The notes under the pieces are model-generated. The model worked only from the letters and a program-made list of their open reading frames with translations. It was not told the DNA's origin and did no database searches. Both the position numbers and the translations under genes were made by a program. A stretch of DNA of 51,712 nucleotides from Myxococcales bacterium (GTDB lineage Bacteria > Myxococcota_A > Polyangia > Polyangiales > Houyiibacteriaceae): assembly GCA_029862185.1 (NCBI GenBank), contig JAOTXX010000024.1, forward strand, positions 1 through 51,712, in the 5' to 3' direction. This document shows positions 2,253-29,387 of the stretch, one piece after another. The stretch's first letter is position 1. Every line of letters starts with the position of its first letter.

Positions 2253-2502
2253 TGCTCCGCCAGATTGTTGGCGGTAGACGTAGATCGTGCGAACACGATC
2301 GATGATAACGAGTCCCGTTGTCCGACCGAGACGTCACCCGCTCATGACGCAATGGATGTTACGAGGCGGAAAAACGCAAGGTTGTCACCAGCTGTACGAA
2401 CCCGCAGGCGAAACCGGCGGATGGCCACATCTCGATTGGAATTGACTGGCAGAAAGCCTTCTCATCGTGCACGGTAGTCCTTTCTTGGAAAGGATGACGA
2501 AA

Positions 2503-4215
2503 ATGTCAGTAAAACTGCTTGCCCTTGGATCTCTTTTCTTGTTTGCGCTGTCGCTGCTGACGCCGGCGACGCCAGCTCAGGCTTGTGGCGGGCTTTTCTG
2601 TTCCGCTACGGCGCCGGTGAATCAGGCCGCTGAACGGATCATCTTTTCGAAGAACGCGGATGGCACGGTCACCGCCGTCGTTCAGATCCAATACGAAGGG
2701 CCGTCCGAAGAGTTCGCCTGGGTCTTGCCGGTTCCCGGGGTCCCAGACATCGAAGTGTCGTCGGATCTCGCGTTCACCCGACTCCAGCTTGCGAGTAACC
2801 CACAGTACAATCTGACGACCCGTGTCGAAGGAGAGTGCCTGGACGATGGCACTAGATTCGCCCCGCCTGGCGATGTCATCCTTAATGGGGACTCCGGCAG
2901 CGGCGGTGCGGGTGGCAGCGGTGGCGGCGGCATCAATGTCCTGGCGCAGGGGAACGTCGGTCCGTACGACTATGTGGTCATCCAGCCCCAAGGCATCTTC
3001 GACCGCGTCGGCGACGTGGCGGTCGAGTGGCTTACGGACGAGGGCTACGACGTGGTTCCACCGGGCGGCGATCCCGAGGATATCTCTGACCTGCTCGGCT
3101 CATACCTCGAAGACGGGATGAACCTGATCGCGTTTCGGCTGACCAAGGGCAATGACGAAGGCACGATCCGGCCGATTCGAATGACCTACGTTTCGGATCA
3201 GCCCATGATTCCCATTCGTCCAACCGCCGTAGCGGCGAACGATGACATGGGCGTGATGGTCTGGGTGCTGGGTGAAAGCCGCGCCGTGCCGGTCAACTAC
3301 CGCGCACTCGAGCTCAACGAGGCGCTGATCGATTGGCTCACTGGCGGCAGCAACTACAACCAGGTCGTGGTGGCCGCTGGAAATGAGGCCGGTGGTCAAG
3401 GGTTCGTGACCGAGCGTGCGGGACCAGCCGATGCCTACGAGAACGTGGTCGTGGCGGACTTCGAACGCGACCAGTGGGAGCAGCTCCAGCTCAACCTCCC
3501 CGCGCTCTCCTCCGAAGATGTCCTGGACCAGAGCGCTCGGTTCGCGCAGTGGGATGGGTATCTCGGCGTGCTCGAGGACTTCTTGCCTGCCGATGAGCTC
3601 GAACAGTTTGTCCAGTGTCCCCGCTGCGGCAATCCGCTGACGCCATTCAACACCGAGGCGTTCATGGAGGCGCTTTCGACGGAGGTCGTGACGCCGATGC
3701 TGGAAACGAGCGAGCTCCTGGCGTCGAGGCCCTACGTGACGCGCTTCTACACGACATTGTCTGCCCCGGAAATGGACCTCGACCCCTTGTTTGATTTCAA
3801 CCCGGACCTCGAAGACATCGACAACGTGCATGGCGCCGAGCGCGTCATCGAATGCGACCCGTTGATCACGTTCAGCGAAGCACCGTCGCGCGTGGAGCTC
3901 GAGGACGGAAGGGTCGTTCGACTGCCGCCGGGCGCGAGAACTTGGCCCTGGAACCCCGATGGAGATGGCGCCCCTCCGGCCAATGCAATTGTCTCGCAGC
4001 TGTCGACCAGTGGCCCCGGAACGGTCGTGACCGACAACAGCGCAGCGATCGACCAAGCGCTCGGGCAGCACAACGCGACTGTGCCAAGCCTCGACAGCAT
4101 GGGTCTGACCACCGCCGGGGGCTGCTCGGTCACCTCGAATCCGACGGGCTTGCTGACCTGGCTAGGCCTGGCGCTACTTCTCTTGCGTCGAAGGACAGGG
4201 ACACTCTCCGGCTAG
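2503..4215 (+). CDS. DUF2330 domain surface protein with MYXO-CTERM-like tail
   Basis: Secreted or surface-anchored protein of unknown function, 570 aa. A signal peptide (about residues 1-28, ending TPAQA) is followed directly by CGGLFCS and then the DUF2330 core (sequence around IQYEGPSEEFAWVLPVPGVP), which is typical of this family. A Gly/Ser-rich insert lies near residue 145. The C-terminus has a GGCS motif, a hydrophobic helix and an Arg cluster, the layout of MYXO-CTERM sorting tails that are processed and anchored in Myxococcota. ATG 2503 is preferred over ATG 2494 because AAGGA sits 8 bases upstream of it, whereas it abuts 2494. Oddity: the last five residues and the stop codon are encoded by the left end of the inverted-repeat element starting at 4198, so the native tail was probably trimmed or replaced there. 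Confidence 0.85.
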   Translation: MSVKLLALGSLFLFALSLLTPATPAQACGGLFCSATAPVNQAAERIIFSKNADGTVTAVVQIQYEGPSEEFAWVLPVPGVPDIEVSSDLAFTRLQLASNPQYNLTTRVEGECLDDGTRFAPPGDVILNGDSGSGGAGGSGGGGINVLAQGNVGPYDYVVIQPQGIFDRVGDVAVEWLTDEGYDVVPPGGDPEDISDLLGSYLEDGMNLIAFRLTKGNDEGTIRPIRMTYVSDQPMIPIRPTAVAANDDMGVMVWVLGESRAVPVNYRALELNEALIDWLTGGSNYNQVVVAAGNEAGGQGFVTERAGPADAYENVVVADFERDQWEQLQLNLPALSSEDVLDQSARFAQWDGYLGVLEDFLPADELEQFVQCPRCGNPLTPFNTEAFMEALSTEVVTPMLETSELLASRPYVTRFYTTLSAPEMDLDPLFDFNPDLEDIDNVHGAERVIECDPLITFSEAPSRVELEDGRVVRLPPGARTWPWNPDGDGAPPANAIVSQLSTSGPGTVVTDNSAAIDQALGQHNATVPSLDSMGLTTAGGCSVTSNPTGLLTWLGLALLLLRRRTGTLSG

Positions 4216-6709: not shown

Positions 6710-9688
6710 TTAACACAGAGTCCAGATGAAGATGCGACGCACCGCGCTTCGCCTGTTGCCGTCGCTATCGGTCACCGTGAGCTTCACATCGTGCCACGTG
6801 CCGAAGCAGGTGTTGGAGTAGAGGCGTACCGTGACGGTGCCGCCCGTCCCCAGCGTTCCGCTCTGCACATCAGTGCGATTCGTCGTCCAGACCAGCGAGC
6901 TGCCGGACAGGGTTCCGTCTTCGGGATCCTGGCCAGTGCCGACGAAGGTCACGTCGCTGTACCACTGCTCACGGGCGTCGTCGTAGCCGTCGTACGCGTA
7001 AGGGCCCTCGCTCACTCCCGAATCCACCGCGGGTTGGAGGATCGAAGCGGTGGGCGGGTTGTCGGCACAGGTCTCGACGAGCAGATTGACCGAGTCCTCT
7101 GCGAACTCGCCCTGGTCGTCGGTGGCGCGGACCACGATCGTGTAGCCGCCCTCCGGGAACGAGCCCGTCACGGAGTGCCCCGTGCCAAGGAACGCACCAC
7201 CGGCAACGGACCACTCGATCGCGCTCTCCGGAAGCTCGAAGGTCGGTGTGTTGTTCAGATCCTGCGATGTAGCAAGGAACGTGATTGGCTCGTCCGCGCA
7301 GTATCGCTCGACGCCGCCGGGTGCGACGAGGTCGACGGTTGGGGGATCGTTCGAGATCGTGAGCTCCACGCTATCGCTCAGCGTGCCGCCACCCGGTGCC
7401 GAAGTGCTCGCAGTGATGACATGAAGGCCGAACGACAGGTCAAGCCGGGAAATCAAGCCCACGCTCTCTCCGAGGAAGCCATCCACATCACTGGTCCATC
7501 GAACCAACGGCGCCTCGGTGAATCCGAGTGTGCGCGCTCTGAATTCGACCCGCCGGCGCCCAGGCGGCACGACACTGCCGTCCGTCGGCGACTGGATGAT
7601 GATCGCGGGATCCCTTCGTTCACGGTACGCGAAGAAACCGCTCTCATTCCCGACCCCCGTCTCATCTCCAATGCCGGTGATCAACGCGCGCTGCGCCGGG
7701 GTGCTCGTCGAGCAAAAAAGCAAACCGTCGAGGGTAATCGGCGGAGTCGTCGGCACGGTGATGCGCACGAAGCACGGATCGTTCGGGTCGGTGATGAAGG
7801 TGCGCGGATTGATCTCGAGCTCGACGCCCGCAATTGCACTGCTGGAGTCGGACGGCGTATAGGTACCGCCGGTGATGTTGTCGACAAACTCGAACACTCC
7901 GTCGAGGCCTGCGCCGACGACGCGCCATGAGCCGAAGAAATCGAGCGGCGCGGGGTTGCCGGCCGTCTCACGGGCAAACTGCATTGCCGGGTAGTCGCCG
8001 ATCGTCGCGAAGAATGGCTCACGCGTGTCGAAGTCGCCCGCCGGATGCGTCCACCCCGCAAGCGTGTCGTCGTCGACGCGAAGCGCAATAACCCCAGTCC
8101 CGCCGGAGGTCGCATCGTAGCTGGCGTCGATTTCCGGACTGCCGAAACGTGCGACCATGCGGTCGACACCCAGCGATCCGTTCACTCGGTAGTCCCGATC
8201 GGTTGCATGGAGCGTACCGATCCGCCTGTCGGTTCGTCCCAAGAGGGAGCTGTTCGGAAAGGCTCCGGGCAGATGGTAGGCCGCGAGATTGGCGCGCCCG
8301 AGAGGTAGATCCGTCTCGACGTGCCACTTTCCCAGATAAGGCTGGTTGTTGAGCCAACCGCTTGGGTTACGCGTCTCGAGCACGCTGTAGGCGTCTGAGA
8401 TCCGATTGATCCAATCGTAGCTCATGTAGATGAAGCCGCTCGTCCCCGCGGCAGCCTCGGCGGGCCTTCCGCGATCCATCAAGTCCGTGCCCCAAGAGTT
8501 CTTGACGATGAAGGCTTGCATCTCGTCGTCGTATCCGACGATCAACATCGCGTGTCCGCCCGCGTTGGTCTCGAGCGGATGCCAGACCCCGTCGGCGAAC
8601 TGCGCCTCTTCGTCTTCTTCTTGCGCATCGTAACAAGGGTCGCCCGTCGGCAAGTCGACGCCCGCGTCGTCCACACAGGCACGCACGCGAGTCAACGCTA
8701 CGCCAAAGGCCACTTCGCGACCGGCGGCGAGCTCGTCTCGTATTGCACTCAGCGTCGAGCTGACCGCGCGCACCCGGGCTGCACCGTAAACGGCCTCTGC
8801 CGGGGCGCTGCGCGGGAAGTTGATGAAGGTCCTGCTCTCGGGAATCGAATAGGTCATGGGTTGGGCGCTGAGATTCCAGCCGTCCACGGCCCGCTGGCTC
8901 AGCGTCGTGTCGCGCCACGACATCCGAGGGAGGTCGCCATCTTGGTTGGTGTTTTCGTAGTTGTTGTTCGGGATGTAGGTGAGGCTTGGGTCGCTCACAT
9001 CGATCCCAGCCATCACGTCCTCCTCGGGCAGGCCGAATCTCAATCGAAACAACCAGCCGAGCTGGTAGCTGAGGGAGCTTCCGCCCCATGCGCCGAGCTG
9101 GGTTTCGCGCTCGCTCGGTGCCGCCGGAGCTTCATTCAGGTAGGTCATTTTCTGCACGTGGTTCGCGTACTGTTCGGACAAGTCCAGCGTCAGGCCGCGC
9201 TCCCGCTCGTAGGCGGCTTCGAGGGCCGCGCTCGTCGCGTGGGCAACGCAGGTTCCTCGACCGCCTTGGTCTCGAATGGCGGTCTGCCGATCGCGAAGGT
9301 CGACCCGGGTGGGGACCGCTTTTAATCCGATGCGTTGCTCGAGCAGTTGAGGTGAGCCCTCGCCGTCCTCCGGCGCAGTCTCGGGAGGCGGCGGAAACTG
9401 CGCGCGGAGCTCGTCCCAGAGGTCCAGCCGGTCCAACACGACCCGCTTGCCGTCGCTGAGGGTGATCGTGGGAATGCCGTCACGCTCGCCATAGGTTGCG
9501 GCAGGCGCTCGAGGCCCCCCTCCTTCTTGCTCTTCGAATGAAGCCGGCGCGCAGCTAGCGAGACCGATTTGCGATGCGAGCACCGCGAGCAATGCGCGTG
9601 CGCCGAGGCCGGATGGCATTCGGACCGGGCGTCTCACACGACCTTGCAGTTTGGATGCCGAGGGGTTGAGGTTGTCGTTGTTGTTCAT
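6710..9688 (-). CDS. Papain-fold (C1) cysteine peptidase lipoprotein with Ig-like repeats and C-terminal FIWTLC domain
   Basis: Secreted 992-aa lipoprotein. The N-terminus has a basic stretch, a hydrophobic segment and lipobox LASC (Cys46). A C1 peptidase domain spans about 120-440: catalytic Cys147 in QGGRGTCVAHATSA, His379 in NAGGHAMLIVGYDD and Asn397 in VKNSWGTD. A middle region of unclear fold follows, then two Ig/PKD-like repeats (around IQSPTDGSVVPPGRRRVEF and NDPPTVDLVAPGG). The last about 118 residues (NPPTASILQPA to FIWTLC) are closely related to the lipoprotein at 15820-16344. ATG 9688 is supported by AGGAG six bases upstream. The role is presumably extracellular proteolysis or processing of surface proteins. 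Transcription ends at the 6642-6675 hairpin. Family call is firm; substrate is unknown. Confidence 0.88.
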   Translation of the reverse strand: MNNNDNLNPSASKLQGRVRRPVRMPSGLGARALLAVLASQIGLASCAPASFEEQEGGGPRAPAATYGERDGIPTITLSDGKRVVLDRLDLWDELRAQFPPPPETAPEDGEGSPQLLEQRIGLKAVPTRVDLRDRQTAIRDQGGRGTCVAHATSAALEAAYERERGLTLDLSEQYANHVQKMTYLNEAPAAPSERETQLGAWGGSSLSYQLGWLFRLRFGLPEEDVMAGIDVSDPSLTYIPNNNYENTNQDGDLPRMSWRDTTLSQRAVDGWNLSAQPMTYSIPESRTFINFPRSAPAEAVYGAARVRAVSSTLSAIRDELAAGREVAFGVALTRVRACVDDAGVDLPTGDPCYDAQEEDEEAQFADGVWHPLETNAGGHAMLIVGYDDEMQAFIVKNSWGTDLMDRGRPAEAAAGTSGFIYMSYDWINRISDAYSVLETRNPSGWLNNQPYLGKWHVETDLPLGRANLAAYHLPGAFPNSSLLGRTDRRIGTLHATDRDYRVNGSLGVDRMVARFGSPEIDASYDATSGGTGVIALRVDDDTLAGWTHPAGDFDTREPFFATIGDYPAMQFARETAGNPAPLDFFGSWRVVGAGLDGVFEFVDNITGGTYTPSDSSSAIAGVELEINPRTFITDPNDPCFVRITVPTTPPITLDGLLFCSTSTPAQRALITGIGDETGVGNESGFFAYRERRDPAIIIQSPTDGSVVPPGRRRVEFRARTLGFTEAPLVRWTSDVDGFLGESVGLISRLDLSFGLHVITASTSAPGGGTLSDSVELTISNDPPTVDLVAPGGVERYCADEPITFLATSQDLNNTPTFELPESAIEWSVAGGAFLGTGHSVTGSFPEGGYTIVVRATDDQGEFAEDSVNLLVETCADNPPTASILQPAVDSGVSEGPYAYDGYDDAREQWYSDVTFVGTGQDPEDGTLSGSSLVWTTNRTDVQSGTLGTGGTVTVRLYSNTCFGTWHDVKLTVTDSDGNRRSAVRRIFIWTLC

Positions 9689-9876
9689 GGGTCGCTCCTA
9701 TGAGTTCGGGTAGGTGATTCGGAGCGACAGAAGAGCAAAGCGTATGCCAGGCCAAGACAACCGTGTTTTGGCGCATCATGCGCAGTCGGGAACGAAAGTG
9801 ACGACGTTCCGTCGCCAGTTCTCGGCGCGCCCTGACGTGCGTGCGTCATCGCGCCTGAAGGACCGAACGAGGGCTC

Positions 9877-11613
9877 CTAGAACTGGCCGCGGAGTGCCAC
9901 ATGGGCCCCGCTCGGTCCCACCACGACTTGCGGCTCGAGCCGAGCTCGACTGGGTCGGAACAAGTACACCAATGGCATCGTGAGGAGCGGCGCGGCAGTC
10001 AAGCCCGTGAGCAAGGCGACGCTCGTATGCTGTCCCCGATTGACGCAGCTACGCACTTCGACGGTATCGAGGCCCTGTGCGGAGCATGAGATCGATGGTT
10101 CAGCCTCCGCGGTGACGCCCCAGGCGATCGAGAATGCGGCCAAGCCCAATCCCGCGCCGCCCGAAGCCCACGCCCACCAGGGAGTCTTTTCGCGCTCCGG
10201 CAAGGCGAGTGGCATGGCCGCGACCAGCGCTGCCGAGCCGACAGCACCCGTTGCGATGATCGCTCCTCGGAGGTCGAACCACTTCTGCTGAGCAGACGTG
10301 TCTTGCCCGCCGTTGTCGATTTCGTTGACCCATGAAACGGCGGCATCACTGCGCGGCATCAGAAGCGCGTAGCCCGTCGCAAGGCCGGCTACTCCGACGC
10401 CGACGAGCGTGAGGCCGGCGATGAACTGGCCGCGCGGCCGGCGGCCTGAACGCCGCGTTTCGGGCGCCGCAGAAACCGAAGCCACAGCCTCGCCGCCCCT
10501 GCAGGGCAGCGCAACGGGCTTGGGCGAGGTGAAGTCCATGCATCGACGGTCGGTCAAGGTTCGTGCGGCGGCGAGGAGATCCGACTTGATGGGCCGGTTG
10601 TCGCCCACGGAAAGCCGCGCCAGGGCGACCGGCACCGACGAGTCCGCCCCTTCGATTTCGATGAGCTCGGCCTCCAGTGTCCCCGTGGTGGGCATCGAAA
10701 CGAGAACGACCGCGCCTGCGCCGATCTCGATGGCAAGCCGCCGCGCATCGAGCACCCGGTGTTCACGTTCCTCGGAGGAGCTCGGATAACTGAGCGTCAG
10801 GCTGGGCCTGGTTTCGATGACTTCATCGAATCGCTGGTCCACTCGGTGCAGCGTCTTCCCTGCGCCAACCGTGACTGCGTGCACGCGACCGCGAGCTCCG
10901 GTGCTGCACTCGACCTGAAGGCGATACTCACCAGGAAACAAATCTCCGATTGAAACGGGTGTCTCGCCAAGAAGGAGCCCGTTTAGGCGTGCAGCACATC
11001 CGGACGGCGTGCTTTCCACTCGAAGCTCTCCGGTCTGAGTGGCCTGCAGCGCGTCCACCCGATTGAGCAAGTCCGTCACGGCGGGCGGGTGCATTTGAGG
11101 GCTCGGCTCACCGCGAGGCACCAACTGCCTGCACTCGCGTGCGACCGCCCTTGCGCGAGACTCAGATTGCGTCGCGAGCTCGGCGCGAACGATGTACAGA
11201 CAAGTGTCGAGGACTCTCCTGGCGGGTTCGGGCTCTCGGTTGAGCTCTTCGATCGCTTTGCGCGACATCGCCTGCGCTGAACTCAGCTTGTTGAGGGCCC
11301 GTTCGTAGTTGCCTTCCGCAAGGTCGTTGACCGCTGAGTCCGATAGCGACCTCCAACGGCGGACCTCGCGATCGTCAAGCTTCGACGAGGGCGCCGAAAC
11401 CTTCAACTCTACTTCGGTGGCAGCCCGCTTTTGCGACCAGACCGCTATGCCTTGACCGACGAGCTCGTTGCGGAGGTCCGATACTGCCGCGTCCATCCGG
11501 TCGGCCGGCGCGCCAGAGTGGCTCGGCACGACCAGCCAGTGGCTCTCTGCCTGTGCCCCAACTGACGAAACCAGCAGGCTCCAAGAAAGGAACGTCAACG
11601 AGGTCAGCCGCAT
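9877..11613 (-). CDS. PEGA-domain membrane protein with signal peptide
   Basis: 578-aa envelope protein of unknown function. Residues 1-22 form a signal peptide (ends VGAQA). Residues 90-190 are helical with a TPR-like feel (LAEGNYERALNKLSSAQ). A PEGA domain lies at about 195-262 (GELRVESTPSGCAARLNGLLLGETPV). The C-terminal third carries four hydrophobic segments (GQFIAGLTLVGVGVAGLATG, AIIATGAVGSAALVAAMPLA, WAWASGGAGLGLAAFSIAWG and a LLTGLTAAPLLTMPLVYLF stretch). PEGA domains are common in myxobacterial surface and kinase proteins. The gene is divergent from the sigma-54 activator and PEGA-kinase genes with only 94 bases between starts, which suggests a shared regulatory region. No enzyme motif is visible. 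Confidence 0.8.
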   Translation of the reverse strand: MRLTSLTFLSWSLLVSSVGAQAESHWLVVPSHSGAPADRMDAAVSDLRNELVGQGIAVWSQKRAATEVELKVSAPSSKLDDREVRRWRSLSDSAVNDLAEGNYERALNKLSSAQAMSRKAIEELNREPEPARRVLDTCLYIVRAELATQSESRARAVARECRQLVPRGEPSPQMHPPAVTDLLNRVDALQATQTGELRVESTPSGCAARLNGLLLGETPVSIGDLFPGEYRLQVECSTGARGRVHAVTVGAGKTLHRVDQRFDEVIETRPSLTLSYPSSSEEREHRVLDARRLAIEIGAGAVVLVSMPTTGTLEAELIEIEGADSSVPVALARLSVGDNRPIKSDLLAAARTLTDRRCMDFTSPKPVALPCRGGEAVASVSAAPETRRSGRRPRGQFIAGLTLVGVGVAGLATGYALLMPRSDAAVSWVNEIDNGGQDTSAQQKWFDLRGAIIATGAVGSAALVAAMPLALPEREKTPWWAWASGGAGLGLAAFSIAWGVTAEAEPSISCSAQGLDTVEVRSCVNRGQHTSVALLTGLTAAPLLTMPLVYLFRPSRARLEPQVVVGPSGAHVALRGQF

Positions 11614-11707
11614 GCCGGGGTCTTATCACAGGTTCGGAAACTCAGGATCAACAACGTCTCGCGGGGGTGGTCCTCGTCACGGCAACCATGTAATCTCAAA
11701 AGCGCCG

Positions 11708-13273
11708 ATGTCCTCGATCAAGCCGACTGAGCCGTGGCCGCGAGTGCGCGACGTCGTGGAAGCCTCTGTCATGGGGCTCCATCGCGGCCGCTTCATCGAG
11801 GAGACACTCGAAGCGCTGTGTGTGCAGCTTGGCGCAGCTTCGGCGTGGAGCACTCTGGAAACCAAAGGCAACGGACCGATGCACCGCTCACGGACGACGA
11901 GCTTTCGCGGCGTGTCGCCGGCGATCCTCGCCATGCACGTGGCCGACGTGCTCAATCAGGTGCAGTCAAAGCTCAAGACGGTTGCCGGCCCGGTTCCCTA
12001 CGCGCCGGACGGTTCTTTCATTGCCGTGCCGCTGTGGTCGCTTCCGACGGGCTCGTCACAAGGCCGGAGCCTGATCGGGGCGCTCTACTTGGAATTCGGT
12101 AAGGACCAGGGCACCCACGAGCCCGTCGTCGGTGTGGTGGAGACGGCCGGCGCGCTGCTTGGCGGCCTCATTGCACAGCAGACGGTCATCGAAGACACCA
12201 GGGAAGATCTCCGGGCCGAGCGGGCGACCGAGCCCGGCGGTGCGCAGCTCACGCTCGACGAGCTTCTCGCGCCCGAGAGCATGGCTGACATCGCTCGCGA
12301 GCTCCGCTCTGCCATTGGAAGTGACGAGTCGATCATGATCGTCGGTGAGTCCGGCACCGGCAAGACTCAGCTCGCCACGGCTTTTGCACATGCAAGCAAC
12401 CAAGCCCCGATCGTACGGGCCACCCTCGGGCTTGCGGACGACCTAAACACGATCACATCGGAGCTCTTCGGGCATGAACGTGGCTCGTTCTCGGGTGCCG
12501 TGTCCAAACGCAAAGGGCTGGTCGAGTATGCAGACAAAGGAACCCTGATTTTCGACGAGGTGCTCAACCTGCCACACCACGCGCAGCAATTGCTTCTCGA
12601 CTTCACCCAATTTGGTTCGTACCGCCCGCTCGGCTACCAAGGACCCCAGCCCAAGACGGCGAGCCTGCGCATCATCTCCGTGACCAACGGCGACGTGCGG
12701 AAGGCCATCGCCGACAGGGTGTTTCGTCAGGACTTGTACTACCGGCTCGCCGCCGTGCCGATCGCCTTGCCTCCGCTTCGCGCACGTCGCTGGGACATCC
12801 CCAACATCGCCGTACGTTACCTTCATCGCATCGACCCAATCACGAGCTGGGAGCTCGACGGGAGTGCGATGGACGCCCTTCTCTCCCCGAAGCTCTCTTG
12901 GGAGGGCAACATCCGCGAGCTCGAGTCCGTATTGAAGCGCGCGCAAAACCGAGCCCGAGCGGCGGGGGACGGCGATCCTGTCATTCAGGCGCGGCACCTC
13001 GAGCTGGGCGTCGGTGAGCCTCCGACGTCCTCGAGCCGGCCGTCGGAGCGCCCGGCAGTGCATGATGACATTCGAGGCCGTTGGCGGAAACTGAGCGAAC
13101 AAGAGAACGACCTAGAGGCCGCGGAGCGGGCCGTCATCGAAGATGCGCTCGCTCTCTGCCATGGTATCGTCGCGCGCACCGCGCGCATGTTGGATGTTCC
13201 ACGTACCGGCTTGATCAGCCGGATCGGACGGCTCGGCATCGACACGGAGAGTTTCAAAGAACGGAAGGGATGA
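11708..13273 (+). CDS. Sigma-54-type AAA+ transcriptional activator with GAF-like N-terminus and Fis HTH
   Basis: Bacterial enhancer-binding protein, 521 aa. Residues 15-165 look like a GAF-type sensor; there is no receiver domain. The AAA+ domain spans about 185-420: Walker A GESGTGKT (213-220), a GAFTGA-equivalent loop reading GSFSGA (259-264), Walker B TLIFDE (279-284), the VFRQDLYYRL segment with sensor arginines, and a WEGNIRELESVLKRA sensor II region. The C-terminus (ALALCHGIVARTARMLDVPRTGLISRI) is a Fis-type helix-turn-helix. I chose ATG 11708 by domain start; the frame is open to 11468. The kinase gene starts 9 bases after the stop, so they form an operon, implying that kinase and regulator work in one pathway. 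The GAFTGA substitutions could weaken or alter sigma-54 contact. Confidence 0.87.
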   Translation: MSSIKPTEPWPRVRDVVEASVMGLHRGRFIEETLEALCVQLGAASAWSTLETKGNGPMHRSRTTSFRGVSPAILAMHVADVLNQVQSKLKTVAGPVPYAPDGSFIAVPLWSLPTGSSQGRSLIGALYLEFGKDQGTHEPVVGVVETAGALLGGLIAQQTVIEDTREDLRAERATEPGGAQLTLDELLAPESMADIARELRSAIGSDESIMIVGESGTGKTQLATAFAHASNQAPIVRATLGLADDLNTITSELFGHERGSFSGAVSKRKGLVEYADKGTLIFDEVLNLPHHAQQLLLDFTQFGSYRPLGYQGPQPKTASLRIISVTNGDVRKAIADRVFRQDLYYRLAAVPIALPPLRARRWDIPNIAVRYLHRIDPITSWELDGSAMDALLSPKLSWEGNIRELESVLKRAQNRARAAGDGDPVIQARHLELGVGEPPTSSSRPSERPAVHDDIRGRWRKLSEQENDLEAAERAVIEDALALCHGIVARTARMLDVPRTGLISRIGRLGIDTESFKERKG

Positions 13274-13282
13274 GCCGGGCTC

Positions 13283-14926
13283 ATGTCCAAAATCGACTTC
13301 GATGCCTCTTCAAGCGATCTGCTCGGGACCGAAATCGGCCCTTACACGCTGGTGCGACGACTCGGTATGGGCGGAATGGCCGAAACGTTCGTGGCCATTC
13401 GGCGTGGGCCGAGTGGGTTCACTCAACGCGTGTGTTTGAAGCTCGTGCTGCCCTTCTTTCGCGAAGACGAGGAGTTCGTAAAGCTGTTTCAGCGTGAAGC
13501 GCGACTTGCCGCGAAGCTGCGCCACAGCAACATCGTCGGTGTCATCGACTTCGGAGCAATTGGAGGCCGTTCGTACATGGCCATGGAGCTGGTCGACGGT
13601 GTAGACCTTCGCGTCCTGCTCGACGCCCAAAGTGCTCAGCGGCTCTCTCCCGAGCGGGTCGCCCTCCTAGGGCACGACCTCGCTGCAGCTCTGAACCACG
13701 CGCATAACCCGCCTCGCGACAGCAGCGTTGACGAGGGGCAGGCCGCAGCGATCGTGCACCGCGACATCTCCCCGTCCAACGTGCTCATCAGCATTCACGG
13801 TGAAATCATGTTGAGCGACTTCGGCGTGGCCAAGGCGGTCACCGGGAGCTCGCGGCAACAGAGCGCCGTCAAGGGCAAGATTCCCTACATGTCGCCCGAG
13901 CAGCTGCGACTGGAGCCGCTCGATGGACGCGCGGACCTCTTTGGGGTGGGCGTTGTCCTGTTCGAGGCGCTGTGCGGGCAGCGCCCCTACGAGGGCGGTC
14001 ACGACCCGGCCACGATCATGTTGATCCTGCAGGGTCAACATCAGCCGCTCGCTTCGCTTGCGCCGGGGGCCCCGCCTGAGCTGTGTGCATTGGTCGAGCG
14101 CCTCATCGAACCGGACCGTGACAAGCGCCCCGACAGCGCCGCCGAGTTGATCGAGTTGCTCGACCCGTTTGTCCCCGTACCTCGGGTTCGGCGCGAGCTC
14201 GGGAAGAGAGTTGCCGAGCTCCGGCCCAAAGACCCAGGACCGCAGGCGTTCGGCGAGCAGGCGACGGCTCAGCAGCCAGGCAGCCTACCGGCGGACGATG
14301 GCGAACAGATCAGCGGAATCGTCGGCGCAGGAGAAGGACGCAAGCAGGTCGAGCCGTGGGCGGAGAGCAACGTCGCCGCGCCGGAGGCACCGAGCGCAGT
14401 TCAATCGGAATCGTTCGTCACTGGCACCCTGCCAAAGCGACGACGGACCGGGGCTCTGATTGCGCTGCTGCTTACCGCCCTGCTGTTGGCGGGGGGCGTG
14501 CTGGCCTGGCGCGCAATGCGTGATGCGGGTCCAGAGGCGCAGCCGGCTCCGAGTGAGATCGAAGCCGAGCCGGTCGTCGCGGTCGACAGCGTCGAAGCCG
14601 ACGTCGAAGCGGAGCCCGAAGCCGAGGCCGAAGGCGAGGCCGAGCAGCAGAAGGCCGACGAGCTGCAAGAAGCGAGCGACCAACCCACGCCGAAGCCGCG
14701 CGTGCAGCCAGTGGTGCAGGCGCCTGCGAGTTTGACGGTCATCGTCTACCCGTGGGGCGACGTCTGGATCAACGGGAAGCGTCGGGGCACCGCGCCGCTG
14801 AAGGACCTCTCGCTCAAGCCCGGTCGGTATCGAATCGCCGCCGGCCAGGGCGAGCCTACGGTCACTCAGACCATACGACTCCGGCCGGGCCAGACAAAGA
14901 AGCTGAAGCTCGACGTCACAAAGTGA
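13283..14926 (+). CDS. Membrane Ser/Thr protein kinase with C-terminal PEGA domain
   Basis: Hanks-type kinase, 547 aa. Kinase domain about 20-295: Gly loop LGMGGMAETF, VAIK-equivalent Lys53 (VCLKLV), catalytic HRD (159-161) in VHRDISPSN, DFG at 179-181 and the activation segment KIPYMSPEQLRLEP. The usual Lys two residues after HRD is Ser163 here; I recall HRDxSPxN as common in myxobacterial kinases. A Glu/Ala-rich juxtamembrane region leads to one transmembrane helix at about 391-411 (ALIALLLTALLLAGGVLAW), an acidic linker and an extracytoplasmic PEGA domain in the last 70 residues (LTVIVYPWGDVWINGKRRGTA begins it). Co-transcribed with the sigma-54 activator. Probably couples an envelope signal to phosphorylation of that regulator or another target; the partner is inferred from synteny only. 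Confidence 0.92.
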   Translation: MSKIDFDASSSDLLGTEIGPYTLVRRLGMGGMAETFVAIRRGPSGFTQRVCLKLVLPFFREDEEFVKLFQREARLAAKLRHSNIVGVIDFGAIGGRSYMAMELVDGVDLRVLLDAQSAQRLSPERVALLGHDLAAALNHAHNPPRDSSVDEGQAAAIVHRDISPSNVLISIHGEIMLSDFGVAKAVTGSSRQQSAVKGKIPYMSPEQLRLEPLDGRADLFGVGVVLFEALCGQRPYEGGHDPATIMLILQGQHQPLASLAPGAPPELCALVERLIEPDRDKRPDSAAELIELLDPFVPVPRVRRELGKRVAELRPKDPGPQAFGEQATAQQPGSLPADDGEQISGIVGAGEGRKQVEPWAESNVAAPEAPSAVQSESFVTGTLPKRRRTGALIALLLTALLLAGGVLAWRAMRDAGPEAQPAPSEIEAEPVVAVDSVEADVEAEPEAEAEGEAEQQKADELQEASDQPTPKPRVQPVVQAPASLTVIVYPWGDVWINGKRRGTAPLKDLSLKPGRYRIAAGQGEPTVTQTIRLRPGQTKKLKLDVTK

Positions 14927-15003
14927 TCGATGAGGAAGCCGACATCCGGTCGGAAAATGACTGACGGGGGTCGGTCACTCTGCTCTCCGAGCCGGAGCTC
15001 TCT

Positions 15004-15022
15004 CCGAAAATCATTCGGTTTT
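15004..15022 (+). terminator. Small hairpin with T-tract after the kinase gene
   Basis: Stem CCGAA / TTCGG with a 5-base loop followed directly by TTTT, about 80 bases after the kinase stop and 65 before the next start. Short stem, so a weak terminator call. Confidence 0.45.
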
Positions 15023-15086
15023 CTGGATGGCATGCCTCGTGCGTTAGCAGTGAGGCATGTCGAAACACAAACCGATAGGAGAGACC

Positions 15087-15719
15087 ATGACTCGTTACAA
15101 CATCTTTCGAACGCTCGTCAGCTCGAGCATCATTCTCGCGGCGGTCGGCTGCGGTGACTCGGGCGTCGATGAGCGAAGCGTCTTCGAAGAGCCCGCTGCG
15201 ATCGGCCCGTCGGAGAGCGGCGGTGGCGCATCACTCGAGGAAGAGCTCGAGCTCGCGTGCAACTCTGCCTGCGACGCCATGCAGGAGTGTCCAGGAATGG
15301 CTGTCACCGAGAACTGTGTAGAAAGCTGCGTTGCTGCGTATGGGGTCGGCGCCGAGGCAGGCGACGAGTGCACGCTCGTCGGCATTGACCTCCTCAATTG
15401 CATCTCGGCACTCAGCTGCTCCACACCGCCGTTTGATGACGACTGCGCCGACGCGGTGCGCGAGGTTCGCACCACTTGCGGAACTGGGGTTCTGAGAGTC
15501 AGAGAGGACTCTGATTCCGATCGGGAGCTCGTCGCAGAGCTCGCTGATCGCTCCTCGAGCGATCTGGACGGCAGCGCCGACGAGCCAGACCCGGCGGACG
15601 GGTCCGAGGACGAGGAGCCGGGAGTCATCGATCTCGCCGATCCCATCGTGATCGCCGAGGTACCTGACCTCGTCGTGATCGTGGACTTTCCCTGGGGCGG
15701 AGTCTCAGAAGATGACTGA
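15087..15719 (+). CDS. Cys-rich lipoprotein of unknown function
   Basis: 210-aa predicted lipoprotein. The N-terminus MTRYNIFRTL plus hydrophobic stretch ends at lipobox AVGC (Cys around 23). The middle part (about 58-145) holds ten or more cysteines, with spacing such as CNSACDAMQEC and CVESC, consistent with a disulfide-bonded extracytoplasmic module. The last 60 residues are very acidic (Asp/Glu/Ser-rich) and end in a hydrophobic IVIAEVPDLVVIVDFPWGG segment. ATG 15087 has AGGAG six bases upstream, so the in-frame ATG at 15057 is less likely. I do not recognise a named domain. The following lipoprotein gene starts 100 bases downstream. Confidence 0.75.
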   Translation: MTRYNIFRTLVSSSIILAAVGCGDSGVDERSVFEEPAAIGPSESGGGASLEEELELACNSACDAMQECPGMAVTENCVESCVAAYGVGAEAGDECTLVGIDLLNCISALSCSTPPFDDDCADAVREVRTTCGTGVLRVREDSDSDRELVAELADRSSSDLDGSADEPDPADGSEDEEPGVIDLADPIVIAEVPDLVVIVDFPWGGVSEDD

Positions 15720-15819
15720 TCTCCATCGGCTGCTGTTTCGAGGCTCTTCGATCGTTCAGACAAGCGTCAAGTACGACGGCTATTTGATTGGTCGGGGCGC
15801 TGGCGGTACTCTCGCAGGC

Positions 15820-16344
15820 ATGAAGGCACTCGTACGGACTGCGAAGCACTACCAAGTACACGCGATCGCTTGCGTCGCGGCGGTGGCGCTGATGGCTTGT
15901 GTCGACGTTGGCTCGGGCGGCGGCGGCATGGGCGGCTCGGCGGGCATGGGCGGCTCCGCGGGCATGGGCGGCTCCGGTGGGATGGCGAACAGCCCCCCGG
16001 AGGCGACCATCCTCGATCCTGCGAGCGATTCGGGCACCAGCAACCCCGATTACGTCTATGACGGCCTCGATACCGACTTGGACCTTTGGTACAAGGATGT
16101 GACGGTCGAAGGTCTCGGGGCGGACACCGAGGACGGCACGCTGACCGGAGCCTCGCTCGAGTGGAAGACGGACCGCACCGACATCCAAGAAGAAGTACTC
16201 GGCACCGGCGCGAACCCCACCCTGCGGCTGTATTCGAATAATTGCTTCGGGATCACGCACATCATCGTGCTCGAGGTGACCGACAGTGACGGAGCGACGA
16301 CGACCTCTGAGCCACGCACGCTGTTCATTTGGACCCTCTGCTAG
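15820..16344 (+). CDS. Gly-rich lipoprotein consisting of one FIWTLC domain
   Basis: 174-aa predicted lipoprotein. After a signal segment and lipobox (LMAC) comes a collagen-like linker of GGSAGM-type repeats (about 35-55), then a roughly 116-residue domain beginning NSPPEATILDPASDSG and ending FIWTLC at the stop. This domain is about half identical by eye to the C-terminus of the C1 peptidase encoded at 6710-9688 (shared DVT..G.G.D.EDGTL.G.SL.W.T.RTD.Q, RLYSN.CFG..H, VTDSDG, FIWTLC). Two conserved Cys (in SNNCFG and the terminal residue) could form a disulfide. The start is chosen at the ATG giving a normal signal peptide; the frame is open to 15712. Function unknown; probably an Ig-like carbohydrate or protein-binding fold. 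Confidence 0.75.
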   Translation: MKALVRTAKHYQVHAIACVAAVALMACVDVGSGGGGMGGSAGMGGSAGMGGSGGMANSPPEATILDPASDSGTSNPDYVYDGLDTDLDLWYKDVTVEGLGADTEDGTLTGASLEWKTDRTDIQEEVLGTGANPTLRLYSNNCFGITHIIVLEVTDSDGATTTSEPRTLFIWTLC

Positions 16345-24134: not shown

Positions 24135-27100
24135 TCATGCAACCCGGCGTCGACGGCCGAGCCACAAGCAGGCGAGCACTAGCCAATACAGCGAGGTCGA
24201 ATCCCTGCCGAATTGAACGGCGCAGCCGGCGGCCGATGCAGGCGAAGCCGTTTCCGACCCAGCCGTAGGCGGCGTCGTCACTTCGGGGTCCGAATCGACC
24301 GGCGGCGCCACCGTGATGCCCGCCGGCGGTGTCTTGAGGCGAAGGGCCGGGTCGCCGAGTAGGACATAGACCGCTAGCGCCTTCGCGTCATAGGCGGGCG
24401 CGTGCTCTTGGTGGAGCGCGACGACCAGATCGCCGAGGCGAGGTGCGCCGCCATCTGCATTGAAGAGCTTGGTCGCGAAGGCTTCACCAAGCTTGGCTGC
24501 GTAGTGAGACATCGTCACCCCGGACGCGCCCCACGAGGCGATCGCGAACTCGTTGGCCGGGTCGACCATGTGCTCAGCCAGGGCATCGATGCCCGGCAAC
24601 TCGAAGCGAGAGGTTGAGCAGGTCATGCCGGTCACGATCGGCGGCAAGAGGGGTCGCAACATGGGAATGTCTTGTGACATCAGCACGCCTTCGTCGTCGA
24701 ATCGATCAAGCCCGCCGTGGCCCGTGTAGTGCATCCAATAGGGCGCGCGCTGCAAGTCGATCGCCAGCTCGGCTCGTGCGCGCTCGGCGCCAAGTGCATC
24801 GACGCCAATCGACCGCGTTTCGAGCTCGGGCGGAAACCACTTCAGCAGCGCGTCGATGGGTTCGGCGAAGTTCGTACCCCGATTCGCTCCGGAAATCATC
24901 AGAGCGGATAGGCCAAAGTCCGAAAACTCGAGCGCCTGATAGCGTTGCAGCGCTTCGAAAGCCGCGACCGCTTCGTCGACGGTCTGAGCGGGAATTCGTC
25001 CGATGGCCACGTCGGCCAACCCATCTTCATCGAGGTCGCCCAGTAATGCGTCGGAGGCGTACAGCCCCGCCTTCGTCTGTGTCATTCGGGGAGCGATCGC
25101 CCCGGGTCCGATTCCCATGAGGTTTCGATAGTCGAGAGTGCCATCGCCGAGCAGCAACACGAAGCGTGGCTTGTCGGCCCACTGCGCCTCGGCGTCCACC
25201 AGGAAGTCATGGATGGCATGTGGCGTCGCGACCGAATGACCGTACGCGTCGTAGAGACTTTCGATCGACACGACAGCGGTGGACAGACCTTCGGCGGCGT
25301 GCAGCGCGGCAAACCGCTCGGCCGCGCTAACCCATGCAGCCGGTGTAATCACCAGATAGCTAGCTCCGTTCGATGGCGCCTCGAGCTCGACGGCTCCCCG
25401 GACCCCGAGGGGTTGGCTCGGTGCTTCGAAAACGAGGTAGCGGTGGTCGCTCACTGCTTCGAAGCTGACGGACGTGGTGCCAAGCTCGGGGTCTGCGACC
25501 AAGGTTGCCTCGATCTTCTTTTGCGCCGTGATGTCCAGGACGTGCGCCGAGGCCGCGGCGACCTCGACGGTGAGAGCGCCGGTCCGAAGTGCGGTGAACT
25601 CGAGCTCTGGCTGCGAGGTGGACAGCGCCCGCTCGATGTCGAGCTCGAATCGGTCGACGTATAGGCCCGATGCCGCCGCAGGCACGTCCGAATCTGCCAC
25701 CAGCAACAGCTGATTGGTACCGCCGTTCAACACCCCCGGATCAACCGACATCTCAAACACATGGGGTCCCAGGGCCGCAACTTGGACGGTGTCAACCGGA
25801 GCGCCGTTGACGTGGATCGTCACCCGCTGCGCGGTTTCTTCGTTCAAATTCCAGCCGCCGTAGAGGTAGACCCGCAGCGTGGCAGCTTCGATCGGCACCT
25901 CGGGAAGACCGATTTCGGTCTCGTAGTGCCCGTACCCCGGAGCTCGCGCACTCAGCGACGCGGCAAACCAGTAGTCCGATTCCGGATCAGGGGAGACGAC
26001 GAGCGCGGGGAAGGCATTGCTGTCGAGCTGATGCCGCGTCGTGCCCGTCCCGACCGCGGTGACCTCGGTCTGTCGAGGCTCGACCGGCATCGGGCGGCCG
26101 GATGCGTTGCGCACGACGTACTTCCGCGTTGCACTATAGACGCTGGTCGAAGATCGGCCGACGATGACCAGGCTGTCACTGGCCTCGTCGAACCACCACG
26201 GCACCTGGTGCGCCTGCTCGCTGATCTTCACGTTTCCAGACTCCGCCCAATCGCGAATTTCGGCAGGGCTCGTCGCTAGGAGCTCTGAAAGGTCCGTGAT
26301 GGAAACCTCGACGGCACCGTCGCGTGCCACGTCTAGCACCACGCGACTGGCCGGCCCCGACGAATGGCTTTTCAGCACCAGCCCTTCGGCTCGCTGCGCG
26401 GACCGTGCGGCCAGCGCGCGCGGCTCGGCGTCGTAATCGGTTTGCGGCACGCCAGGTGCGGTGGCGGGACGCGCGAGCAGCGCCCACTCGCCAATGGGCT
26501 TTCGCGCGCCGTCGATTTCGATCTCCTCGATTCGATAGCTCACCCTCTGCCGGGTGGACGCGCCCCTGTCGCGCAAGGTGTACACGCCGCCCTGCGGCGC
26601 ACCCGGTAACGCCAACAAGATCCCCTCGTGGACCGGTTCCCATTCGTCCGAGTCGCGTCGCGAAACCACGAAGCCGAGCGTGCCGCTTTGCGACGTCGTC
26701 TCCCACTGCAGCAGGGTCTCACCGCGCACCCTCAGGAGCTCGACTCGCCCGACCAGCACGTGCGTCGAAAGCTGGCAGATGCTCGGAGTCCCCGCGTCAT
26801 CCGGCAAGAAGCACTCGTACCCCGACTCGACCGTGCAATCCGAGCTACAGCCATCTCCGTTCGCGGTATTCCCGTCGTCACACCCCTCCGGCATCGCTAC
26901 GGCGCCGTTGCCGCAAATCGAGGGACCCTCGCAGACGAACTTCTCGTCGTCGCTGCATTTTCGGTCTTGCCATAGGCCGCCGTTCTCCTGCCGTAAGCAG
27001 TCTTCATCTGCTCCTGCGTTGGGCTCGCCCGACTTCCAGTTGGTGTAGAGCCCACCGACCGGGTTTCCCGTTTCGTCGCCCTGCCAGAACTGATCCCCAT

Positions 27101-29387
27101 CGCGCCAGCGCCATTCGCCTTCGACGGTCTGATCCTGTCCACCGATCCAAACGTGATTTCCGATGAACCCGTCGAGGTAGCCGTTCTCGGTCGCATCGTC
27201 GACGCGCGCAAGCGTCCACCCCGCACCGAGCCCCTCGCAAATCGTCTCTGCCTCGCTCGCGGTAAGCGCTTTCTCACACAATAGATACTCGGTTGTGGTG
27301 GCCCCCATCTGGCTGTGCCACTCGAAATTGTCTGCGCAAAAGGGCGTGCAGGTCGATGTCGGGTCGCCAGTGCACGTGTACCCCGGCTCGACCTGACAGG
27401 TGGAGCTGCATCCATCGCCGCCTACGGGGTTCCCGTCGTCGCACTGCTCTCCGAGCCAAATCCGTCCGTCTCCGCAGGGTGGAGGGGCCTCGAGCGCGCA
27501 CGTCGCGCTACAGCCATCGCCATCTTGGATATTGCCGTCGTCGCACTCTTCTGGCGTCGCCACCGCGCCATTTCCGCAGATTGGCGGACCCTCGCACACG
27601 AACTTCTCCTTGTCGGTGCATTTCCTGTCCTGCCACAAGCCGCCGTTCTCCTGCCGTAAGCAGTCTTCATCTGCTCCTGCGTTGGGCTCGCCCGACTTCC
27701 AGTTGGTGTAGAGCCCACCGACCGGGTTTCCCGTTTCGTCGCCTTGCCAGAACTGAACCCCATCACGCCAGCGCCATACGCCTTCAACGGCCTCATCCTG
27801 TCCACCGGTCCAGAGATGATTTCCGATGAATCCATCGAGGTACGCGTTCTCGGTCGCATCGTCGATCCGCGCGAGCGTCCACCCCGAACCAACGCCCTCA
27901 CAAATCGTCTCTGCATTACTCGCAGTATGCGATGTGTCGCACAACAAGTACTCGGTCGTCGTCGCGCCCATCTGGCTGTGCCACTGCAAGTCTCCTGGCA
28001 CGCAGATGGCGGTGCAGGTCGACGATGGATCTCCGGTGCAGGTGAACCCTGGCTCGATCCCACAAATGGCGCTGCACCCGTCACCGCCCAGTGCGTTCCC
28101 GTCGTCGCATTCTTCTCCCAGCCAAACCCGGCCGTCCCCGCAGGTCGCAGCGCCCTCGAGCGTGCACGTCGCGCTACAGCCGTCGCCATCCGCGGTATTG
28201 CCGTCGTCGCACTCTTCGGGCATCGCCACTGCGCCATTTCCGCAGATCGGCGGGCCCTCGCAGACGAACTTCTCGTTGTCGGTGCATTTCTTGTCTTGCC
28301 ACAAGCCGCCGTCCTCCTGTCGTGTGCAGTCTTCATCTGCTCCTGCGTTCGGCTCGCCCGACTTCCAGTTGGTGTAGAGCCCACCGACCGGAGAGCCATT
28401 CTCGTCGCCCGACCAGAACTGCGTCCCATCGCGCCAACGCCATACGCCCTCAACGGCCTCATCGTGCCCGCCGGTCCAAAGATGATTTCCGATGAATCCG
28501 TCGATGTACGCGTTCTCGGTCGCGCCGTTGATCCGCGTCAGCGTCCATCCCCCAGCAAGCCCCTCACAAATCGTCTCTGCGGCACTCACCGAAAGCGATT
28601 TTTCGCACAGGAAATATTCGGTCGTCGTCGAGCCCATCTGGCTGCGCCACTCGAAATTGTCTGCGCAGGAAGACGTGCAGATCGACGGCTCTCCGGTGCA
28701 TGTGTACCCTGGCTCGATCTCACAGTTGGAGTTGCACCCGTCGCCACCGGCCGTGCCCCCGTCATCGCATTCCTCGCCGAGCCAGATAAGCCCGTCGCCG
28801 CACGGAGCAGGCGCTTCGAGTGTGCACGTCGCGCTGCAGCCATCGCCATCCACGGTGTTGCCGTCGTCGCACTCTTCGCCGGCGCCTCTCGCGCTCGAGC
28901 CACAAAACGGAGGACCCTCGCACACGTAGCGCTCGATGTCGGTGCACTTTCGGTCTTCCCAGGTGCTGTCACCCTTCATTCGCGCGCAGTCTTCATCGGC
29001 TCCGGCATTCGGCTGGCCGCCGGACCAGTTGTTGTACAAGCCGCCGACGGGCATTCCGGTGTCATCGCCTAGCCAGAACTGATCGCCGTCGCGCCACAGC
29101 CATTGCCCGTCAATGGCTTGGTCGTCGCCTCCAAGCCAAAGGTTGCCGCCCCCGAGGCCCCTGACGAACCCGTTCTCCCCGCTGTCTTCGACGCGCGTGA
29201 GCGTCCAACCCGCTGCAACCGCCGCGCAGTCCGCATCTGCCGCGCCCCAACTCGCATCGGTCCCGCAGTAGAGGTACTCCGAGGCGCCAAAGGCCGCTGG
29301 AGTGCCCGCTCCGCCGCACTGGGCTTGCGCAGTGGGTCGCCAAGCGAGGAGGGCTACGATCATCAGTACTAAAAATTCCAGTTTCAT
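24135..29387 (-). CDS. Gingipain-like (C25) protease with four C-type-lectin/Cys-rich units and MYXO-CTERM-like tail
   Basis: 1750-aa surface or secreted protein. Signal peptide 1-22. Four C-type-lectin-like domains at about 37-157, 257-377, 480-599 and 700-820, each with WTLxR, GGLYxNW, GADEDC and CEG motifs. Each is followed by myxobacterial Cys-rich repeats ([18 protein letters not shown] type). Residues 880-1340 are beta-rich (FnIII/jelly-roll-like by eye). A C25 peptidase domain spans about 1343-1685 with catalytic His1557 in YTGHGG and Cys1590 in GMTCSTSRF. The end (1721-1750) is GC, hydrophobic helix, RRRR: a MYXO-CTERM-type anchor. The lectin units probably bind glycans and the C25 domain cleaves proteins outside the cell. 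Units 2-4 are nearly identical in DNA. No clear ribosome site precedes ATG 29387; upstream DNA is AT-rich. Confidence 0.9.
26925..28619. repeat. Three near-identical ~660-bp coding repeats (lectin plus Cys-rich unit)
   Basis: Lectin units 2-4 of the C25 protease gene repeat with a period of about 660 bases. Stretches of roughly 100 bases, for example 26975-27080 against 27635-27740, are identical or nearly so. The first unit (28920-29280) has diverged. Synonymous sites are conserved too, which indicates recent duplication or gene conversion. Confidence 0.85.

Follow-up and report, generated by a model that had tools for sequence, protein, structure and literature searches.

Bacterial Ig-like and PKD-like domains such as Big_9 (PF17963), K319L-like_PKD (PF22352) and Big_1 (PF02369) form Ig-like sandwiches. 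Carbohydrate-binding modules of the CBM2 type are also beta-sandwiches, and a disulfide next to the terminus joins their N- and C-terminal ends and locks them. The MYXO-CTERM tag of Myxococcota needs a transmembrane helix and an Arg-rich tail; myxosortase cleaves its C-terminal motif, which contains a Cys, and the protein becomes anchored at the surface (PMC11980579).

We describe a C-terminal domain shared by a C1 peptidase and a small lipoprotein encoded in the 51,712-nucleotide stretch of Myxococcales DNA that was analysed (the window). The core PP...DxEDG...L.W...LGTG...HxIxLxVTDSDG is common to this domain and to ordinary myxobacterial Ig repeats. Unlike Big_9, K319L-like_PKD and Big_1, the window domain possesses a pair of Cys residues, one in the EF loop and one at the C-terminus, and the pair-bearing domain always ends the protein. 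Like CBM2, it is a predicted end-locked beta-sandwich, but its bond would run from the EF loop to the last residue. It resembles MYXO-CTERM in its occurrence in Myxococcota, its C-terminal position, its conserved Cys and its presence on surface proteins (predicted for the window pair), but it is folded. Neither window protein matched TIGR03901 or TIGR03382, and both stop at the Cys.

No Pfam or NCBIfam match to the domain was found in either window protein. The earlier note had named, as a result that would count against its idea, a match to a known Pfam Ig/PKD family in which the terminal Cys is not conserved. The outcome counts against the idea only in part: the window proteins gave no such match, but distant relatives weakly matched Big_9, K319L-like_PKD and Big_1, in one or two members only, and the pair is absent from many relatives. 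The lack of a Pfam Ig match at the cut-off makes membership in a named Pfam family less likely and leaves the fold assignment unaffected. Judged by its modelled fold, the domain is a variant within the large group of bacterial Ig/PKD-like domains, without a family-library match of its own. A literature search of incomplete coverage for a C-terminal-Cys Ig-like domain or cap yielded nothing relevant. Our analysis suggests, with a probability of about three in four, that an intramolecular disulfide staples the chain end of this Cys-terminated Ig-like domain, providing exported proteins with a rigid C-terminal cap.

A shared domain ending in FIWTLC

In a search of the window's own genome with the lipoprotein as the query, the last ~117 residues of the peptidase aligned with lipoprotein residues 56–174 at 58% identity (E 2.8e-38), in agreement with the earlier note, which had estimated a domain of about 118 residues, about half identical. 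That note had also described both proteins as ending at FIWTLC; both reading frames were as described, and the FIWTLC-stop pattern matched at both ends. The shared domain and ending are confirmed far above chance. The peptidase matched PF00112 (E 2.7e-11, Pfam search), and the motifs QGGRGTC, GGHAM and KNSWG, read in its sequence, contain the catalytic Gln-Cys, His and Asn in papain-like order, as in a predicted member of Peptidase C1 (papain). Its ten Cys residues can be assigned to a lipid Cys (46), a catalytic Cys (147) and four pairs, and those of the mature lipoprotein to a lipid Cys and a single pair (Table 1).

Table 1. Positions of the two window proteins and of their parts
Feature	Position	Strand	Description or basis
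C1 (papain-type) peptidase	6710–9688	-	992 aa; lipobox, catalytic domain, further Ig-like domains, FIWTLC-ending domain
Peptidase lipobox Cys46 (IGLASC), predicted lipidation site	9551–9553	-	Sequence, by eye
Peptidase predicted catalytic Cys147	9248–9250	-	Motif QGGRGTC
Peptidase penultimate Ig-like domain, own Cys pair Cys797/Cys874	7064–7348	-	AlphaFold tail model, pLDDT 87
Peptidase C-terminal Ig-like domain, ending at Cys992	6713–7063	-	Homology search, alignment, AlphaFold
Peptidase Cys961, predicted disulfide partner in the loop preceding strand F	6806–6808	-	Alignment, Cys counts
Peptidase FIWTLC codons, strand G end and terminal Cys992	6713–6730	-	DNA pattern match 6710–6730 including stop
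Small lipoprotein	15820–16344	+	174 aa; signal peptide, lipobox, Gly-rich linker, FIWTLC-ending domain
Lipoprotein lipobox Cys27 (ALMAC), predicted lipidation site	15898–15900	+	Sequence, by eye
Lipoprotein Gly/Met/Ser-rich linker, lipid anchor to domain	15913–15987	+	Sequence
Lipoprotein C-terminal Ig-like domain, ending at Cys174	15988–16341	+	Homology search, alignment, AlphaFold
Lipoprotein Cys142, predicted disulfide partner in the loop preceding strand F	16243–16245	+	Alignment, Cys counts
Lipoprotein FIWTLC codons, strand G end and terminal Cys174	16324–16341	+	DNA pattern match

Close copies of the domain were found in 4 of 57 near genomes, all four belonging to one genus. The other close copies are three lipoproteins of the same build (73–81% identical) and a 256-aa lipoprotein in genome G012, in which three domain-bearing proteins are encoded on one 15-kb contig. 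The DNA pattern F[IV]WTLC-stop had exactly six matches in the 19 genomes of the genus, one per domain copy and all at the domain end, while the reversed pattern, used as a control, had none in the same genomes. No FIWTLC-type end was detected apart from the domain in this DNA search of the 19 genomes, indicating that the hexapeptide is the end of the domain and not a tag shared with other proteins. A search of a plasmid collection gave one weak match, in Gemmatirosa, which was an internal ordinary Ig-like domain without the Cys pair.

Fold and the two cysteines

AlphaFold predicted Ig-like sandwiches, the fold that the earlier note had proposed to look for, for the two-domain tail of the peptidase (pLDDT 87) and, with moderate confidence (pLDDT 72), for the lipoprotein domain alone. 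The strands of the tail model are consistent with A, A', B, C, C', E, F and G, and the modelled domain appears to conform to the bacterial Ig-like superfamily, a Greek-key beta-sandwich of 7–9 strands. Structure matches in the PDB were mostly Ig/Fn3/cadherin/PKD-like folds. The closest solved fold to the two-domain tail was that of the “Fn3-like” modules of CbhA (3pdd, Foldseek E 2.5e-8), and the best structural match of the penultimate peptidase domain was the B1 domain of CelAly (9kvu; Z 12.5, rmsd 1.5 over 86), which was also among the matches of a PDB-sequence profile search, weakly. The CbhA and CelAly modules belong to polysaccharide-degrading enzymes, whereas the window domain belongs to proteases and small lipoproteins. 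For the single-domain model, the structure matches were middling (best Z 8.1) and indicate a common fold only.

In the AlphaFold models, FIWTLC constitutes the end of strand G and the final Cys. In the tail model, strands F (184–193) and G (199–209) pair with sums near 393 (184 + 209), and Cys181 and Cys212 also sum to 393; in the single-domain model, in which F spans 93–102 and G extends to 119, the pairing sum is 212 (93 + 119), equal to that of Cys90 and Cys122. Since the Cys sums match the register of the F/G hairpin in both models, the two residues should face each other across the hairpin, just beyond the strand ends.

An alignment of seven copies, comprising the six close copies and the tail of the G012 subtilase, contained only two Cys residues per domain, both invariant: one in LYSNxC and one as the last residue. 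Profile searches of the order and the phylum gave 36 C-terminal relatives in Myxococcota, of which 17 carried both Cys residues, 19 carried neither and none carried only one (Fisher p 1.2e-10, uncorrected for relatedness). Because the search profile favours Cys, a one-Cys domain should outscore a domain with none, and the absence of one-Cys domains is therefore not easily explained as an effect of the search. Each pair-bearing domain holds exactly two Cys residues, 30–33 residues apart, and the second was the last residue in 17/17. The pair was present in none of ~70 internal relatives, located in tandem arrays or followed by further domains. Since relatives without the pair exist, the fold does not depend on the proposed staple.

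On the best tree of the domains, built without the Cys columns, the Cys label changes at least six times. Three independent changes are on well-supported branches and all three are paired, too few for significance after tree correction (sign test p 0.25). The C-terminal pair is missing from the G248 subtilase, whose penultimate Ig domain nevertheless contains a Cys pair (-194/-118). Both Cys residues are kept in genomes with a single detected copy of the domain.

A probable stapled chain end and its alternatives

Starting from the homology, terminal position, Cys covariation, fold and purifying selection established by computation, we infer the following mechanism. A bacterial Ig-like domain would cap the C-terminus of exported proteins that are predicted to be lipidated at the N-terminus. 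Its strand G (...RxLFIWTL) would end in a Cys bonded to the Cys of the E–F loop across the F/G hairpin, so that the chain end is stapled to the body of the domain and strand G is locked. Judging from covariation and strand register, a disulfide probably connects the EF-loop Cys with the last residue; oxidation in the periplasm, once Sec has exported the protein, would produce it. At the protease-rich cell surface, where the carriers are presumed to reside, the domain may serve as a rigid cap and display module and may resist fraying and carboxy-terminal proteolysis. It is mobile between heads, namely a C1 peptidase, S8 peptidases or none. A bolder version, which we consider possible but doubtful, is that the exoproteases and surface lipoproteins of Myxococcota carry this domain as a distinct, transferable C-terminal module, and that without its Cys staple, acting as an end cap or a folding checkpoint, they could not be exported or could not survive in the cell's own protease-rich surroundings.

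The earlier note had proposed either a structural disulfide domain or a sorting/attachment tag. The former is favoured by the exact terminal position of the Cys in all 17 Cys-bearing relatives and by its covariation with the internal Cys. The same exact position would also be expected if the terminal Cys served sorting or covalent attachment, as in MYXO-CTERM, and a Cys-dependent C-terminal tag is in use in the phylum (PMC11980579). However, FIWTLC is followed by neither a transmembrane helix nor an Arg-rich tail, the NCBIfam MYXO-CTERM match is absent, and the last residues are predicted to form a beta strand. Moreover, the terminal Cys covaries with an internal one, every occurrence of the hexapeptide in the 19 genus genomes belongs to the domain, and a lipobox is already present where the N-terminus of a carrier is complete, so that, by prediction, no C-terminal anchor is needed. 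We have rejected the C-terminal sorting tag, for which we see hardly any chance.

The terminal Cys could instead form intermolecular disulfides through the shared domain, linking the lipoprotein to the peptidase or each protein to itself. Both proteins carry the domain and their genes are 6 kb apart, Ig domains often pair, and the three domain proteins of G012 share a contig. Nevertheless, joint gain and loss of two Cys residues per domain, with the two opposite each other in register, is the hallmark of an intramolecular bond, and genomes with a single detected copy retain both; we regard intermolecular bonding as very unlikely. Somewhat less improbable, but still unlikely, is an ordinary tandem Ig-like stalk domain in which the pair is an incidental stabilisation, with no role tied to the chain end. 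Many related Ig-like domains of the phylum lack Cys, and neighbouring Ig domains contain other Cys pairs. An incidental pair is difficult to reconcile with its restriction to protein-ending domains (0 in ~70 internal relatives) and with a Cys that is the last residue every time.

Under our preferred explanation, the disulfide-stapled C-terminus, a C-terminal domain that had no name acquires a definite anatomy open to testing: a probable disulfide-locked chain end on proteases and lipoproteins that are predicted to lie at the surface of Myxococcota cells. This explanation also corrects the plausible reading as a sorting tag. A family model built from the shared domain could provide names for proteins that are at present annotated as hypothetical.

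Carriers, gene neighbourhood and other genes of the window

The Cys-bearing carriers are seven S8 subtilases, one C1 peptidase (that of the window) and, for the rest, proteins without a recognised catalytic head. Pattern matching and reading of the sequences identified a lipobox where the N-terminus of a carrier is complete: LMAC and LASC for the two window proteins and FAGC, TASC, FMGC, ASGC, ATAC and WVGC in relatives. With a signal peptide and a lipobox, these carriers are predicted to be lipoproteins. No close relative of the C1 catalytic domain was found in the rest of the genus. The 256-aa lipoprotein of G012 (L015 267–1037, -) has a signal peptide similar to that of the C1 peptidase and the same two-Ig tail, but no catalytic domain, suggesting that the catalytic head was gained or lost. 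The dN/dS of the tail between these two versions is ~0.22; selection thus appears to maintain the tail even where the head is missing. The dN/dS of the lipoprotein is 0.10–0.18, and the domain is under purifying selection. In G132, a domain copy lies in a 90-aa reading frame (L097 2536–2805, -) with its upstream part out of frame, possibly a broken gene or an assembly error.

In the window, in G012 and in G018 alike, a protease gene lies close to the lipoprotein gene, an arrangement that would fit joint action of the products, as the earlier note had proposed for the two window proteins. A 220-aa Cys-containing lipoprotein without an NCBIfam match is encoded directly upstream of the FIWTLC lipoprotein (15057–15719, +); its counterparts adjoin the FIWTLC lipoprotein in G018 and lie on the G012 contig (L015 14013–14723). 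The intervening block of a PEGA protein, a sigma-54 regulator and a Ser/Thr kinase (9877–14926) is conserved with G012 (L015) and G018 (L019). This block was rejected as a functional partner: relatives of the PEGA protein occur in 17 of the 19 genomes of the genus and the FIWTLC-ending domain in four, indicating that the two are not tied.

Another window gene encodes a 1750-aa protein (24138–29387, -) that contains a C25 peptidase region of the PorU/gingipain type (NCBIfam T9SS_sortase E 1e-47, below the cut-off), seven myxo_disulf repeats, lectin-like repeats and, by eye, a MYXO-CTERM-like tail. A DUF2330 protein (2467–4212, +) has a sub-threshold MYXO-CTERM tail; the established sorting tag is thus probably present within the window itself, on a protein other than the two that share the FIWTLC-ending domain.
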